7,234 bases of DNA, from contig MHDQ01000233.1 of the NCBI GenBank assembly GCA_001803565.1, forward strand, positions 1-7,234, read 5' to 3'. Shown here piece by piece: positions 1-7,234 of this stretch. The notes beneath the pieces were generated by a model. The model was given only the letters and a program-made list of their open reading frames with translations, made no database searches and was not told the origin of the DNA. Source of the stretch: Nitrospinae bacterium RIFCSPLOWO2_12_FULL_45_22 (GTDB lineage Bacteria; 2-12-FULL-45-22). Made by a program: the position numbers and the translations under genes. Position 1 is the stretch's first letter, and every line of letters begins with the position of its first letter.

Positions 1-1242
1 TTCCGCTAATTTCCTTACCTCATCCGCTACTACCGCAAAACCCCTCCCCTGTTCTCCCGCACGGGCCGCTTCAATAGCGGCATTCAAAGCCAACAGGTTA
101 GTCTGGTCTGCTATATCATCAATCACGGCAATAATCTCACCGATCTGGTTGGAATTTGCCCCCAGGGTCTGGATAGTATAGCTGGATTTCTGTACTGCCT
201 CAGCTATACGGTTCATACCATCAATAGTCAGGGTTACGATCTCTCCTCCTTTAGCTGCGGTCTCGGAGGTCTTTTTAGCCGATTCAGCGGCCTGGTTAGA
301 GTTTTTTGCTACCTCCATTACCGTAGCGCTCATCTGCTCAACCGCAGTAGCTACCTGACTGGTCTGAGAAGAACTTTCTTGCGACCCATGTGCCATCTGT
401 TCTGCCGACGCAGAGAGTTCTTCGGTAGCAGAAGCCAGCAGGTCGGCCGTCTGGGCAATCTTACCGATCATATCCCGTAGATTATTATTCATGGTATTGA
501 GCGAGGTACTGAGCTCGCCGGCCTCATCCTCAGAGTAGACCTCTAACCCTTCCTTAGTCAGGTCGCCACTGGCTACGGCCCTTGCCAGAGAGACATTTTT
601 CTTTAACGGCTTAATTATTATAAGGCGTACTAATAGATGAATGATCCCACCGATTAGCAGAATTATCCCTACCGCTACCCCTATTAGTACTAGCGAATTA
701 GATTTTACGGCCTTTTCTACCTCTACCATAGGGAGCGTTATACTGGTTGCCCCCAGGACATCCCCTAACTTTTTGCCGGGATGGCAATGGAGACAATCTT
801 CCGTGGTAGCGCTATCTGGGGCCATCCAGCGGAATACCTTTCCTACGCCATTGCCCTCCACCCTAAAATACTCTGTTTTACCGCTTTCCAGGGCCTGAAG
901 CCCCACCCCCTCAAAGTCATCCCTGGGAGCATTTTCTGGATTCAGGGGATCAGAGCTGGGCAGCCTTACACTATATATTCCTGATCTATTGGCTAACTTA
1001 GCCGTCTCGATAGTCATAATAGATGGTTCTATATCCAGATTCTTTTCTACGACGGCATTAGCCGCCCATTCCCGATCTACATGCAGTTGGGTGACAATTA
1101 ATTTTGCCTTACTCTTTACCTGCTCCAGGATCTGGGCCTTTTGCATCTTGATAGAAAAGAACAAGATTACTCCCATAGAAATTAATAATATTACTCCTAC
1201 TACCAACATGAATTTCAGCTCTAACTTTAGCCTCTTCCACAT
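1..1242 (-). CDS. Methyl-accepting chemotaxis protein with c-type haem sensor domain (C-terminus cut by window edge)
   Basis: Transmembrane chemoreceptor expected to pass an extracytoplasmic redox or gas signal to CheA/CheW. Reading the minus strand gives 414 codons, open to the window edge. TM1 is about residues 11-31. An extracytoplasmic domain of about 150 residues follows and contains CLHCH (C150, C153, H154; bases 781-795), a CXXCH haem c attachment site. The surrounding [10 protein letters not shown] and the GATSITLPM strand resemble the Tll0287-like/DUF3365 PAS-type haem fold. TM2 is about 183-207, HAMP about 208-260, then the coiled-coil signalling domain with a good methylation consensus (E302/Q303 in ATAVEQMSA). 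The conserved hairpin tip begins at about 377 ([20 protein letters not shown]) and the frame runs out at VRKLAE. The start is set by GGGAGGTG (1251-1258), 8 bases before the ATG. Known relatives are the Geobacter sulfurreducens haem chemoreceptors (GSU0582/GSU0935 type). The missing part should be the second helix of the hairpin. The receptor class is certain; the ligand is inferred. Confidence 0.93.
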
Positions 1243-1471: not shown

Positions 1472-3061
1472 TTAATTTAACTTGCTCCTACCATTTAATC
1501 TAAACTGCCCTACCATTTCTTTAAGTTCCAGGGCCAGATTACTCAAATCTTTACAAGACGTCCAGGACTGCTGAGAAGCAGTAGCAGTCTGCCTGGATAT
1601 AGTAGCTACAGAAACCACATTAGAGGATATCTCATCCGCCGCGGCCGACTGCTGGTCAGCGGCAGTAGCAATCTGGTTGATCATGTCAGTAACCCGGTTA
1701 ACGGCATCTATGATCTCATGCAAGGCACCTCCTGCTTTGAGGGCCAGTTGTACTCCAGACTCCACCTCTTTAGTCCCAGCATCCATAGAGGATACTGCCC
1801 CGGATATTCCTTTCTGGATAGACTTAATCATCTCAGCTATCTCTTTAGTAGCTTTAGTAGTTCGTTCCGCAAGTTTTCTGACTTCATCGGCAACTACGGC
1901 AAAACCCCGGCCCTGTTCCCCGGCCCGGGCCGCTTCAATAGCAGCATTAAGGGCCAATAGATTGGTCTGATCAGCAATGTCATCAATGACGGCTACGATT
2001 TCTCCGATCTGCTGGGAGGATTTACCTAGCTCCTCGACAGTCTTAGCGGAGTCTTTTACCGATTTAGCAATACTATTCATCCCTTCAACGGTTTTAGAAA
2101 CTACATCACCCCCCTGGGTGGCAGTATGGACTGCTGTTTTAGCCGATTCAGCCGCCTGGGCAGAGCTTTTTGCCACCTGGATAACGGTAGCAGACATCTC
2201 CTCAATGGCAGTGCTTACCTGCTCAGCCTGTGAGGTTTGTTGATCTGCCCCTTCGGCTATTTGTTTGGTCGTGGCTGCCAGCCCCTCCACTGAGGTAGAT
2301 ACCAGACTAGAACTAGAGACAACTTTATGGATCATCTCCTCGAGTGAGAGGCACATATTATTAAAAGTACTCCCCAACTGACCGATCTCGTCCCTGGCTT
2401 TTATATCAACTCTCTGCCTCAAATCACCATTGGCCATCTCTTTAAATGACGCTAGCAAGGAATTAACTGGGTGACTGATCCCTTTAGATAGGAAATACCC
2501 CCCGATAATTGAGCCAGCAAAACATATTAGCAAGACGAAAAGCATCCTGGACCTCATTTTATAAGTACTTTCCAGGGCTTCATCTTTAAAGGCATTTATT
2601 ACTAATACCCAGCCGGTTTGCTTATAGGGCTTAAAGGCCCCGATATAATCTTTCCTATCCCAGTTATACTCAATTACCCCGCTCCCTCGAGCCAGGATTG
2701 CTTTAACAAAATTCTGTTCTTTTAACTCTGGAGTTTTTAATCTACCGTTACCGTTGACCAGGACTTTACCTTCTCTATTTAATAGATAGGCAAATCCCTC
2801 CTGACCTACCTTTACCTCCTGTATCTTATCGGCAATCATCTTTGCCCGGCTGGCTTCATCTAAGTTGCTGCCCTGGATTACAGAAAGGATGCCTTCGGTC
2901 TCCATTAACTTTAAGTCTGCCAGACTGGTCAATTTCTCTTCCACGGACTCTAATAGTCCCTTCCTTGCCCCTGAATAGGCTAAAAACCCTACCAGGGTCG
3001 AAGGTACAATCACCAATAAAGAGAAAATGGTCATCAATTTTTTTCCTATAGTCCAACTCAT
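1472..3061 (-). CDS. Methyl-accepting chemotaxis protein with Cache-like sensor domain
   Basis: Complete 529-residue chemoreceptor. TM1 is about residues 11-31. The extracytoplasmic region (about 32-171) has the hallmarks of a single Cache domain: [20 protein letters not shown] (85-104), then GSGVIEYNW and [19 protein letters not shown] (139-157). Such domains bind small organic ligands directly. TM2 is about 172-192, HAMP about 193-245 ([25 protein letters not shown]). The long helical signalling domain has a methylation site at E287/E288 (STAIEEMSA) and the CheA/CheW-binding hairpin tip at about 360-400. It ends [17 protein letters not shown] with no CheR-tethering pentapeptide. GGAGG at 3069-3073 precedes the ATG by 7 bases. 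Its tip region is nearly identical to that of the downstream haem receptor, while the sensor domains are unrelated, as expected for receptors sharing one signalling array. The ligand cannot be told from sequence. Confidence 0.96.
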
Positions 3062-3318: not shown

Positions 3319-3672
3319 CTACAGTTTATCCTGAAATTCTCTAGATATGCCCTCTAGTACCTGGAGATAATTCATTGCTCCACCTATATCACGGGTGCTG
3401 ATACTCTCTTCTAATTTATCCACAAACATACCGAAGGTAGCTACTTTCTGAGAATCTACTACCTTGACTAAAGTTGGTACGAGATCTCCATAGCTAGTCT
3501 TTAGTCGCTTAAGGCTATCCAGGGCAGCCCGGGCATTGGTTCGATAGTTCTGCTGACAGTTAGTCAGCTCGGCGGTTATTGTATCCAGGCCGGCCTCACT
3601 CCAGGTGGGTACCGCTGCTAAAAATAAAATCCCTAATACCGACAGAGATATTACCTTAATCATTTTCTGCAT
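3319..3672 (-). CDS. Small secreted helical protein of unknown function
   Basis: Precursor of 117 residues. The N-terminus MQKMIKVISLSVLGILFLAA followed by VPTWSEA is a clear Sec signal peptide with probable cleavage after SEA (residue 27), leaving a soluble, mostly helical mature protein of about 90 residues with one cysteine (C39, in TNCQQNY). It has no lipobox and no membrane segment after the signal. I recognise no family. The chosen ATG has GGGGGTGA just upstream (3677-3684). An in-frame ATG at 3702 would add MNKRKRGGET before the signal peptide; it has its own purine-rich upstream region and cannot be excluded. The gene lies upstream of, and in the same direction as, the two chemoreceptors, behind a FliA-like promoter. 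An extracytoplasmic partner for a receptor or flagellum is therefore possible, but this rests only on context. Confidence 0.8.
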   Translation of the reverse strand: MQKMIKVISLSVLGILFLAAVPTWSEAGLDTITAELTNCQQNYRTNARAALDSLKRLKTSYGDLVPTLVKVVDSQKVATFGMFVDKLEESISTRDIGGAMNYLQVLEGISREFQDKL

Positions 3673-3676
3673 AGTT

Positions 3677-3684
3677 TCACCCCC
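3677..3684 (-). promoter_or_regulatory. Ribosome binding site favouring the internal start at 3672
   Basis: GGGGGTGA differs at one position from the GGAGGTGA complement of the 16S tail. It sits 4 bases from the ATG at 3672, counting from its last base. It decides for the shorter protein, whose signal peptide begins in the usual MQKMIK fashion, over the start at 3702. Confidence 0.55.
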
Positions 3685-3724
3685 TCTCTTTCTCTTATTC
3701 ATTCTCTCCCTTTCACCCTCTTAC

Positions 3725-3981: not shown

Positions 3982-4905
3982 ATGAGAATCATCCGTGATT
4001 TGTCAACTGACAAAAAAGATTTATCAAATCTGGTACTGACTATTGGTAACTTTGATGGGGTACACCTGGGCCACCAGGCCATCTTTAAAAAGCTGACCCA
4101 GCGGGCGGCCGAGTTAGAAGGTGTAAGCGCGGTCTTGACTTTTGATCCCCATCCCTCAAAAATCCTGCGCTCTACGGCATCTATACCCCTCTTGACCCCC
4201 TTTGAAGAAAAGATGAGATTATTAGAGGATCTAGGTATCCAGTCGGTTATTTGTATCGCTTTCACGGCTGACTTTGCCCGGTTGACCAAGGAAGAGTTTG
4301 TAGAAAAGGTTTTGAGCCAATCTTTGGCGGTAAAAGAATTGTTTGTAGGCCACGATTTCGCCTTTGGCTTTCGACGAGAAGGAAGCCTGAAATTCCTCCA
4401 GGAGATGGGAAAGGATCGGGGCTTTAAAGTTAATGTAGTTGATCCCGTAGAAATAAATGGCACTATAGTAAGCAGCTCTTTGATCAGGCGGTTGGTTCAG
4501 GAGGGGGTAGTGTCTCAAGCCTCTACTATGCTTGGAAGGAATTATGTGATTACAGGCCGGGTAGTTCAGGGGTATAGGGTAGGTAAGAAGCTGGGATTCC
4601 CTACCGCTAATCTTCTCTGTGCTAACAAGTTAATACCGGCTCCGGGTATCTATGCCGTAAAGACCGTATTTAAGGGAAATGAATTCGTAGGGGTTGTCAA
4701 TATTGGGACTTGCCCTACTTTTGACCGGGAAGGGCTCAGTGTAGAGGTTCATATCCTGAGCTTCCATCAGGATATCTATGATGAGATGCTAAAGGTGGAG
4801 TTCTATGAGCGGTTACGGGAAGAGAGGCGGTTCGAGTCTCCTGAGGCCCTGGCAGAACAAATCAAAAAAGATATCGAACAGACCGAAAAGATAGTCCAGA
4901 TATGA
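3982..4905 (+). CDS. ribF: Bifunctional riboflavin kinase / FAD synthetase
   Basis: Cytoplasmic enzyme that phosphorylates riboflavin to FMN and adenylylates FMN to FAD. The 307 residues match the usual bacterial length. The N-terminal nucleotidyltransferase domain (about 15-185) shows IGNFDGVHLGH (21-31), the HxGH-type ATP site, then TFDPHP (53-58), GHDFAFGFRREG (123-134) and SSSLIRRL (164-171). The C-terminal kinase domain (about 187-307) shows GRVVQGYRVGKKLGFPTAN (192-210) with the flavokinase PTAN motif, PGIYAV, NIGTCPTF (240-247), VEVHIL (254-259) with the expected catalytic glutamate, and the closing RFESPEALAEQIKKDI helix. AAAGGG (3969-3974) lies 7 bases before the ATG. The gene is driven by the TTGACA/GATAAT promoter and overlaps the next gene by ATGA. 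All key motifs are intact and nothing is truncated. Confidence 0.97.
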   Translation: MRIIRDLSTDKKDLSNLVLTIGNFDGVHLGHQAIFKKLTQRAAELEGVSAVLTFDPHPSKILRSTASIPLLTPFEEKMRLLEDLGIQSVICIAFTADFARLTKEEFVEKVLSQSLAVKELFVGHDFAFGFRREGSLKFLQEMGKDRGFKVNVVDPVEINGTIVSSSLIRRLVQEGVVSQASTMLGRNYVITGRVVQGYRVGKKLGFPTANLLCANKLIPAPGIYAVKTVFKGNEFVGVVNIGTCPTFDREGLSVEVHILSFHQDIYDEMLKVEFYERLREERRFESPEALAEQIKKDIEQTEKIVQI

Positions 4906-5897
4906 ACCTGAAGTTTTGGCTCGGGATAATTATCAGCCTGGTTTTAATGGTTATTATATTTTACCAGGTTGATTTCACAGAAGTGGTTACTGCCCTAAAA
5001 TCCGTTAACTATCTTTTATTAATCCCGGCAGCAATGATATTGATCCTTACTATATTAATCAGGGCTTTCCGCTGGAAATATCTACTAAAACCAGTAAAGA
5101 CCGTCCGGCTATATAATCTATTCTCTGCTACTTCTATAGGCTTTATGGCCAATATGATCCTCCCAGCCCGTTTAGGAGAGTTTATCCGGGCATATCTTAT
5201 TGGCCAGAGAGAAGATATTAGTAAGAGCGCTTCGCTGGCTACAATAGTAGTAGAGAGATTATGGGATATCCTTATATTGCTCCTCTTCCTGGGCCTGATC
5301 CTTCTGGTGACTCCTTTAGCCAGGGGAGACTCATCGCTAGAAGAAGGGTTGAAGTGGGGCGGGGGTATTTCTCTTACTATTTTATTTGCCATGCTGCTAT
5401 CTCTAGTATTACTGAAAGAAAAGACCACAGCTTCATTGAGCATAGTGCAGACAATAATGAATCCCTTGTCTGCTACCTTATCCTTGAAGGTAGAGAATTT
5501 TATCTCCTCTTTTGCGGCTGGCCTGGGTACTATTAAGGGTAATAAAGACCTGATCTATATAGCCCTATGGTCTTTTATCTTATGGGTGGTATCAGCCCTT
5601 TCTATGCACATCATATTCTTTGCCTTCCACATTTATCTACCTTTCTATGCCCCTTTTTTCCTTATTGTGCTCCAGGCTTTTGGAGTAGCCCTACCCTCAT
5701 CACCCGGCTTCATAGGTACCTATCATGTTGCTACTATTGCTGGCCTAACCCTCCTGGGTATCCCGAAAGAACAAGCCCTGAGTATCGCTATTGTTATGCA
5801 TGCCTCTTTTTTTGTCCCTATGATCGTCCTGGGTATATCCCTTTTGTGGCTGGAGGGTCTTTCATTAGCCCAAATCCGAAATATCTCTAAACCCTAA
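4902..5897 (+). CDS. Flippase-like integral membrane protein (LPG-synthase transmembrane / UPF0104 family)
   Basis: Inner-membrane protein of 331 residues with roughly eight hydrophobic segments (for example about 5-22, 37-54, 117-137, 153-172, 217-243, 293-318). Family motifs are intact: RAFRWKYLLKP (54-64), GFMANMILPARLGEFIRAYL (80-99) with the conserved N, P, R and GE, ATIVVERLWD (113-122), and LPSSPGFIGTYH (264-275). This is the transmembrane half of MprF-like proteins; the soluble aminoacyl-transferase domain is absent. Stand-alone members are usually annotated as flippase-like or AglD/YbhN-like, and their substrate (lipid or lipid-linked) is mostly unknown. The start overlaps the ribF stop as ATGA with no strong Shine-Dalgarno, so translation is probably coupled to ribF. 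That pairing need not mean a flavin role. Confidence 0.9.
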   Translation: MNLKFWLGIIISLVLMVIIFYQVDFTEVVTALKSVNYLLLIPAAMILILTILIRAFRWKYLLKPVKTVRLYNLFSATSIGFMANMILPARLGEFIRAYLIGQREDISKSASLATIVVERLWDILILLLFLGLILLVTPLARGDSSLEEGLKWGGGISLTILFAMLLSLVLLKEKTTASLSIVQTIMNPLSATLSLKVENFISSFAAGLGTIKGNKDLIYIALWSFILWVVSALSMHIIFFAFHIYLPFYAPFFLIVLQAFGVALPSSPGFIGTYHVATIAGLTLLGIPKEQALSIAIVMHASFFVPMIVLGISLLWLEGLSLAQIRNISKP

Positions 5898-6086: not shown

Positions 6087-7234
6087 ATGGAGCAGATGGG
6101 AATATATTTTGACCATGCAGCTACTTCCTTCCCTAAGCCAGAATCGGTCTATCAAGCAATAGAGCATACTCTGCGCCATGTAGGGGGGAATCCGGGCAGG
6201 GGTAGTCATAAGAGGGCACTGAATGCCAGTCGCCTGGTATTTAATGCCCGGGAGAAGCTGGCCCAGATCCTAAATATCCCGGACTCAAGCCATATTATCT
6301 TTACCCTTAATGCCACTGAGGCCCTTAATCTTGCCCTGAAGGGGTTGCTAAAGGATGGAGACCATGTCATTACTTCTAGCCTGGAGCATAACTCTGTCCT
6401 GAGGCCGCTCAGGGCATTAGAGCAAAAAAGAGGTGTCTCAAAAACTATTATCCCCTGCACACCCGAGGGCTTCATTGATATGGAAGTCCTGGGAAAATCC
6501 CTACAGCGCAATACCCGCTTAATGGTCCTTACCCATGCCTCCAATGTTATTGGTACTATTATGCCGGTAGAGGAAATAAGCCATCTGGTGCACAAAAGAG
6601 GAGTACTTTTAGTTCTAGATGCTGCCCAAACTGTCGGTACCATGCCTATTGATGTAGGCGAGCTAGGGGTAGACCTTTTAGCTGCCTCAGGCCATAAAGG
6701 ACTATTGGGACCCCAGGGGACGGGATTCCTATATATTAAGGAAGGGTTAACATTAGAGCCTTTATTTGAAGGAGGTACCGGGAGCTATTCTGACTATGAA
6801 GAACAACCACCAGAGTTGCCGGATCGGTTTGAGAGTGGCACCCATAATACCCCCGGCATAGCCGGCTTAGGGGCCGGCGTAGAATATCTTCTTAAAGAAG
6901 GATTGGGTAAGGTCTGGCAACATAAAAAGATGCTAACAGCCCTGGCCCTGGAGGCATTAAAAGAAGTCCCTGGTATCCAACTTTATGGGCCGAAAGAACC
7001 AGAGCAGCAAATATCTGTTATATCCTTCAACCTGGCGGGCCATGACCCAACTAGCATAGGGAGGAGCCTGGATGAAGAATTTGATATCCAAACCCGTCCC
7101 GGCCTCCACTGTGCCCCATTAGCCCACAGAGCGATAGGGAGTTTTCCCCTGGGTACTGTGAGGATCAGTTTTGGCTATTTTAATACCCCAGCCGAGATTG
7201 AATATTTTATTAGTGCCCTAATAAAAATAGGATG
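6087..7234 (+). CDS. Cysteine desulfurase family protein (class V aminotransferase fold), stop just beyond window
   Basis: PLP enzyme expected to convert cysteine to alanine and deliver sulfur as a persulfide. 382 codons are visible, then TG at the edge, probably the stop, because the family is about this long. Motifs in order: IYFDHAATSFPKP (6-18), GNPGRGSH (34-41), TLNATEALNLALKG (73-86), SSLEHNSVLRPL (97-108) with PLP-stacking H101, LDAAQTVG (177-184) with D178, SGHKGLLGPQGTGFLY (201-216) with Schiff-base K204, FESGTHNTPG (248-257), RPGLHCAPLAH (337-347) with catalytic C342, and VRISFGYFNT (358-367) with carboxylate-binding R359. This pattern fits the EF2568-type branch (TIGR01977) rather than IscS or classical SufS. 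The start is uncertain: there is no Shine-Dalgarno before 6087 because the octamer array ends there, and M4 (6096) has GGAG only 3 bases upstream. No Fe-S assembly partner is visible. Confidence 0.92.
   Translation, partial: MEQMGIYFDHAATSFPKPESVYQAIEHTLRHVGGNPGRGSHKRALNASRLVFNAREKLAQILNIPDSSHIIFTLNATEALNLALKGLLKDGDHVITSSLEHNSVLRPLRALEQKRGVSKTIIPCTPEGFIDMEVLGKSLQRNTRLMVLTHASNVIGTIMPVEEISHLVHKRGVLLVLDAAQTVGTMPIDVGELGVDLLAASGHKGLLGPQGTGFLYIKEGLTLEPLFEGGTGSYSDYEEQPPELPDRFESGTHNTPGIAGLGAGVEYLLKEGLGKVWQHKKMLTALALEALKEVPGIQLYGPKEPEQQISVISFNLAGHDPTSIGRSLDEEFDIQTRPGLHCAPLAHRAIGSFPLGTVRISFGYFNTPAEIEYFISALIKIG

Follow-up and report, generated by a model that had tools for sequence, protein, structure and literature searches.

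The described systems closest to the locus analysed here are GSU0582 and GSU0935 of Geobacter sulfurreducens (PDB 3B47 and 3B42), two methyl-accepting chemotaxis proteins (MCPs) in which a periplasmic sensor with a single haem c lies between the transmembrane helices TM1 and TM2 and is followed by HAMP and MCP signalling domains. NO binds to their sensors whether oxidised or reduced, CO to the reduced form (PMC3460858, PMC8396549); the sensors crystallise as swapped dimers and show a redox-linked Met exchange (PMC8396549), the exchangeable distal residue of GSU0935 being Met60. Tll0287 (PDB 5B82), a stand-alone protein, has an axial Cys as well as a CXXCH motif. The Tll0287-like domain (PF11845, formerly DUF3365) has been renamed sCache_heme and reassigned to the Cache superfamily (PMC12889525, a 2026 preprint). 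Stand-alone members of the family (Cluster 1) are recognized by an axial Cys and the lack of a signalling domain; from one of them, the Pseudomonas putida protein, NO dissociates fast. The one signalling-type member studied, from Pseudomonas azotoformans, shows slow NO release and no stable oxy complex (PMC12889525).

Organization of the Locus

The window, that is the whole stretch of DNA analysed, is a complete contig (C233) of 7234 bases from a 3.67 Mb assembly that is 85% complete. The features relevant to the receptor are the following:

1..1242, minus strand: probable haem-c methyl-accepting chemotaxis protein (TM1, sCache_heme sensor, TM2, HAMP, MCP signalling domain), ending with the contig after residue 414
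730..1137, minus strand: Tll0287-like/sCache_heme sensor domain (PF11845), residues 36-171, from Pfam and the predicted model
781..795, minus strand: CLHCH, probable haem-c attachment motif, residues 150-154, with His154 as putative proximal ligand
1015..1017, minus strand: Met76, candidate distal residue from the alignment column of relatives
475..627, minus strand: HAMP domain, residues 206-256 (Pfam)
1..285, minus strand: MCP signalling domain, residues 320-414, incomplete (Pfam)
1472..3061, minus strand: neighbouring complete MCP with a Cache sensor (PF17201), without CXXCH

Because the open reading frame 1242..1 meets no stop before the contig end, only 414 residues of the first receptor are visible. 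Pfam nevertheless finds PF11845, HAMP and MCPsignal all in this one protein, and the order of its parts, with a signalling domain cut short by the contig end, is that of the haem-c MCPs GSU0582/GSU0935; the initial annotation had already compared the sensor fold with that of Geobacter haem chemoreceptors. The neighbouring receptor (3061..1472) had been described as a paired Cache receptor devoid of the motif, and it does contain a Cache domain (PF17201) and no CXXCH. In their signalling parts the two MCPs share 47% identity, against 37% between the haem MCP and the third MCP of the genome; judging from these sequences, the pair may therefore have arisen by duplication, each receptor carrying a sensor of its own kind.

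A 127-residue ORF (3319-3702, minus strand) with a signal-peptide-like start, for which no Pfam or NCBIfam family was matched, lies on the same strand as the Cache MCP and upstream of it. The plus strand encodes an LPG-synthase-TM/flippase-like protein (4902-5897), immediately after ribF, and a TIGR01977-type cysteine desulfurase (6087-7232). No sigma-70-like site was found on the minus strand between 1150 and 3800, and no FliA-type site anywhere in the window.

The CXXCH Motif and the Family of the Sensor

Positions 795..781 of the minus strand read TGT CTC CAT TGC CAT and encode CLHCH at residues 150-154, exactly where the motif had first been reported, and its assignment to the extracytoplasmic part of an MCP, between TM1 and TM2, agrees with the predicted model. 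The sensor region (residues 32-182) contains two Cys, both within this motif; CXXCH arises in 0.015% of shuffles of the same residues; and its C, C and H line up in 54 of 54 aligned sensors, all of which were chosen for having CXXCH, most having been found as relatives of the window sensor or of PF11845. Taken together, these observations argue that the motif is not there by chance. Seven further residues (R57, P73, N104, P106, E111, P142, and G164), strongly conserved among the same 54 CXXCH-selected sensors, are all present in the window protein.

A Pfam search, proposed in the initial annotation as a check for a haem-sensor family, matched the sensor to PF11845 with 61.8 bits (E=1.2e-16; curated cut-off 24.1 bits) over profile positions 2-144 of 144. 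This is the single PF11845 match in the host genome; the family is matched in 13 of 60 relatives, almost all distant, and a protein match to the window sensor was obtained in 56 of 386 genomes. A scan of named genomes with the single protein sequence gave no relative, and no plasmid-borne relative was found. The relatives found are only about 22-39% identical. The best named ones (~27-33%) come mostly from Deferribacterota (L073-L075, L077-L082), with a Desulfobacteraceae, a Desulfuromonadales, and an alphaproteobacterial MAG. Their output is a histidine kinase, as checked by Pfam for L073 and by reading the sequence for the other Deferribacterota proteins, or in one case of GGDEF type, whereas that of the window protein is an MCP; two other genomes (L003, L006) were confirmed to combine a PF11845 sensor with an MCP output. 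The window sensor differs from the named relatives at position 93 (Arg instead of His) and position 95 (Pro instead of Thr), and it has two extra residues, one after NPENAP and one before CXXCH. Low identity, the location of the closest sensor relatives found on kinases rather than MCPs, and these sequence differences all count against reading the protein as a haem-c sCache_heme chemoreceptor.

Predicted Structure of the Sensor

Searching PDB chains with the sensor alone (phmmer) gave no match, and a profile search retrieved 5b82 at E=5e-7 but 3b47 only at E=0.51; identity to 3b42 is as low as 12-15% (Foldseek). An AlphaFold2 model, haem-free and built on a 13-sequence alignment (mean pLDDT 86), comprises a long helix including TM1, a helix at 73-87, strands at 91-93, 125-131, 134-145, and 162-171, and TM2, with the CXXCH on a short helix (148-152) flanked by the last two strands. 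The top crystal structure is that of Tll0287 (5b82; Z 11.4, 132 residues aligned, rmsd 4.1; E=2.9e-4 by Foldseek); the single row above it is an integrative WalK-YycH model, aligned full length including the membrane helices, and below it come haem-free Cache sensors such as TlpB (Z 9.6 and under). The GSU0935 structure aligns just in the core (Z 6.5, 72 residues), which would be expected were its N-terminal helices swapped between chains (PMC8396549). Structure prediction, also suggested at the outset, thus yields a fold closer to a haem protein than to any other listed crystal structure. The original proposal of a Tll0287-like/DUF3365 haem PAS fold holds for the family and for the nearest fold, but the PAS label has to be given up, the domain now belonging to the Cache superfamily (PMC12889525).

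Gene Content of the Host

ResB and CcsA, which serve haem c attachment, are encoded next to each other on contig C222. Another CcsA-like match, on C83, was discounted: it directly precedes apparent hemA and hemC and in our own reading is probably HemX. CXXCH codon patterns number 418 in the genome, against 75 in a reversed control. Three neighbouring ORFs on C3 (L122, 3086-7156) contain 7, 13, and 11 CXXCH and are probable multihaem cytochromes. A flavodiiron-type protein with ODP and flavodoxin domains (L032:3899-5080, minus strand) is possibly an NO or O2 reductase.

CheA and CheB are found on C189 beside fliG and other flagellar-looking genes, and C40 carries another Che cluster, accompanied by an MCP of its own. 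In this genome (3.67 Mb, 85% complete), which has flagellar genes and two clusters of Che genes, only three MCP signalling proteins were found, two of them in the window; further receptors may be missing from this count because the assembly is incomplete.

Distal Side of the Putative Haem and Possible Signals

In a profile alignment, Pro73 falls at the position of the axial Cys68 of Tll0287, while the stand-alone members L007, L009, and L012 of the 54-sensor alignment have a Cys in helix 2. Having no sensor Cys beyond the motif, and Pro73 in the Cys68 column, the window protein is grouped with the signalling-type members; it is likewise fused to TM, HAMP, and MCP domains, unlike Tll0287. Since the distal Cys of the stand-alone members is missing, our best guess is that the sixth ligand is labile and that NO or redox is the signal; by analogy with the signalling type, either would be better supported than stable O2 binding, which is disfavoured. 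Met76 is a possible distal ligand: its alignment column holds the Met of a common 'NPAYMTR' in relatives, with Met the commonest residue (20 of 54) and Val or Ala in the closest relatives.

That the sensor reports NO, as its P. azotoformans counterpart would, has in our estimate a little less than an even chance. The two proteins share the domain, the TM helices, the HAMP fusion, and the absence of a distal Cys (PMC12889525), and the host has a flavodiiron-type protein, from a family in which some members reduce NO or O2. The window protein, whose ligand binding is putative, differs in having an MCP signalling domain. Against an NO signal, the preprint covers a single signalling-type member, and Pfam/NCBIfam annotation of the window revealed no NO-specific gene adjoining the receptor. 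A redox potential sensor, in which a distal Met (perhaps Met76) would bind in the reduced state and be released in the oxidised state, is nearly as likely, at somewhat less than an even chance. Such a role has been proposed for GSU0582 and GSU0935, where Met exchange is tied to redox (PMC8396549), and would suit both the prevalence of Met in the Met76 column and a host with abundant CXXCH motifs and multihaem ORFs. Against it, Met76 is no more than a tentative counterpart of Met60 of GSU0935, and the closest relatives have other residues at this column. Finally, it is very improbable that the CXXCH arose by chance, or serves as a metal or disulphide site, in a Cache sensor of the ordinary ligand-binding sort, for although the crystal structures ranked under Tll0287 are haem-free Cache domains, the PF11845 score exceeds the cut-off, shuffling seldom yields the motif, and CXXCH is retained in 99% of the family (PMC12889525).

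A Probable Haem-c Chemoreceptor of the sCache_heme Family

The window protein is thus very probably a haem-c sCache_heme chemoreceptor, a reading based on motif, family, predicted fold, and architecture, and on the genes for haem-c assembly, CheA, and flagella in the genome; both the observation and the interpretation of the initial annotation are borne out. As to haem binding, distal ligand, signal, and taxis response, we reason by analogy, every step past the sequence, the predicted fold, and the gene content being modelled on GSU0582/GSU0935 and the P. azotoformans protein. Cys150 and Cys153 would hold one haem c through thioether bonds, with His154 as proximal iron ligand and a Cys-free distal side weakly occupied by water or perhaps Met76. 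Binding of NO, or oxidation and reduction of the iron, would alter distal coordination; the sensor helices would then shift and pass the change through TM2 to HAMP, which in turn would modify CheA activity and flagellar behaviour.

The receptor is a divergent addition to a known receptor type whose architecture is already described. Its lineage has a single order-level relative in the set of genomes searched. A sensor that lacks the distal Cys, in a host rich in cytochromes and poor in chemoreceptors, would offer a clean place to ask whether such proteins respond to NO or to redox potential. Given the unusually small set of receptors found, flagellar taxis might depend mainly on the neighbouring pair, a haem-c redox/NO receptor and a small-molecule Cache receptor, a scenario that we consider rather unlikely; if true, it would provide a simple natural system in which two receptors integrate redox or gas taxis with chemical taxis.
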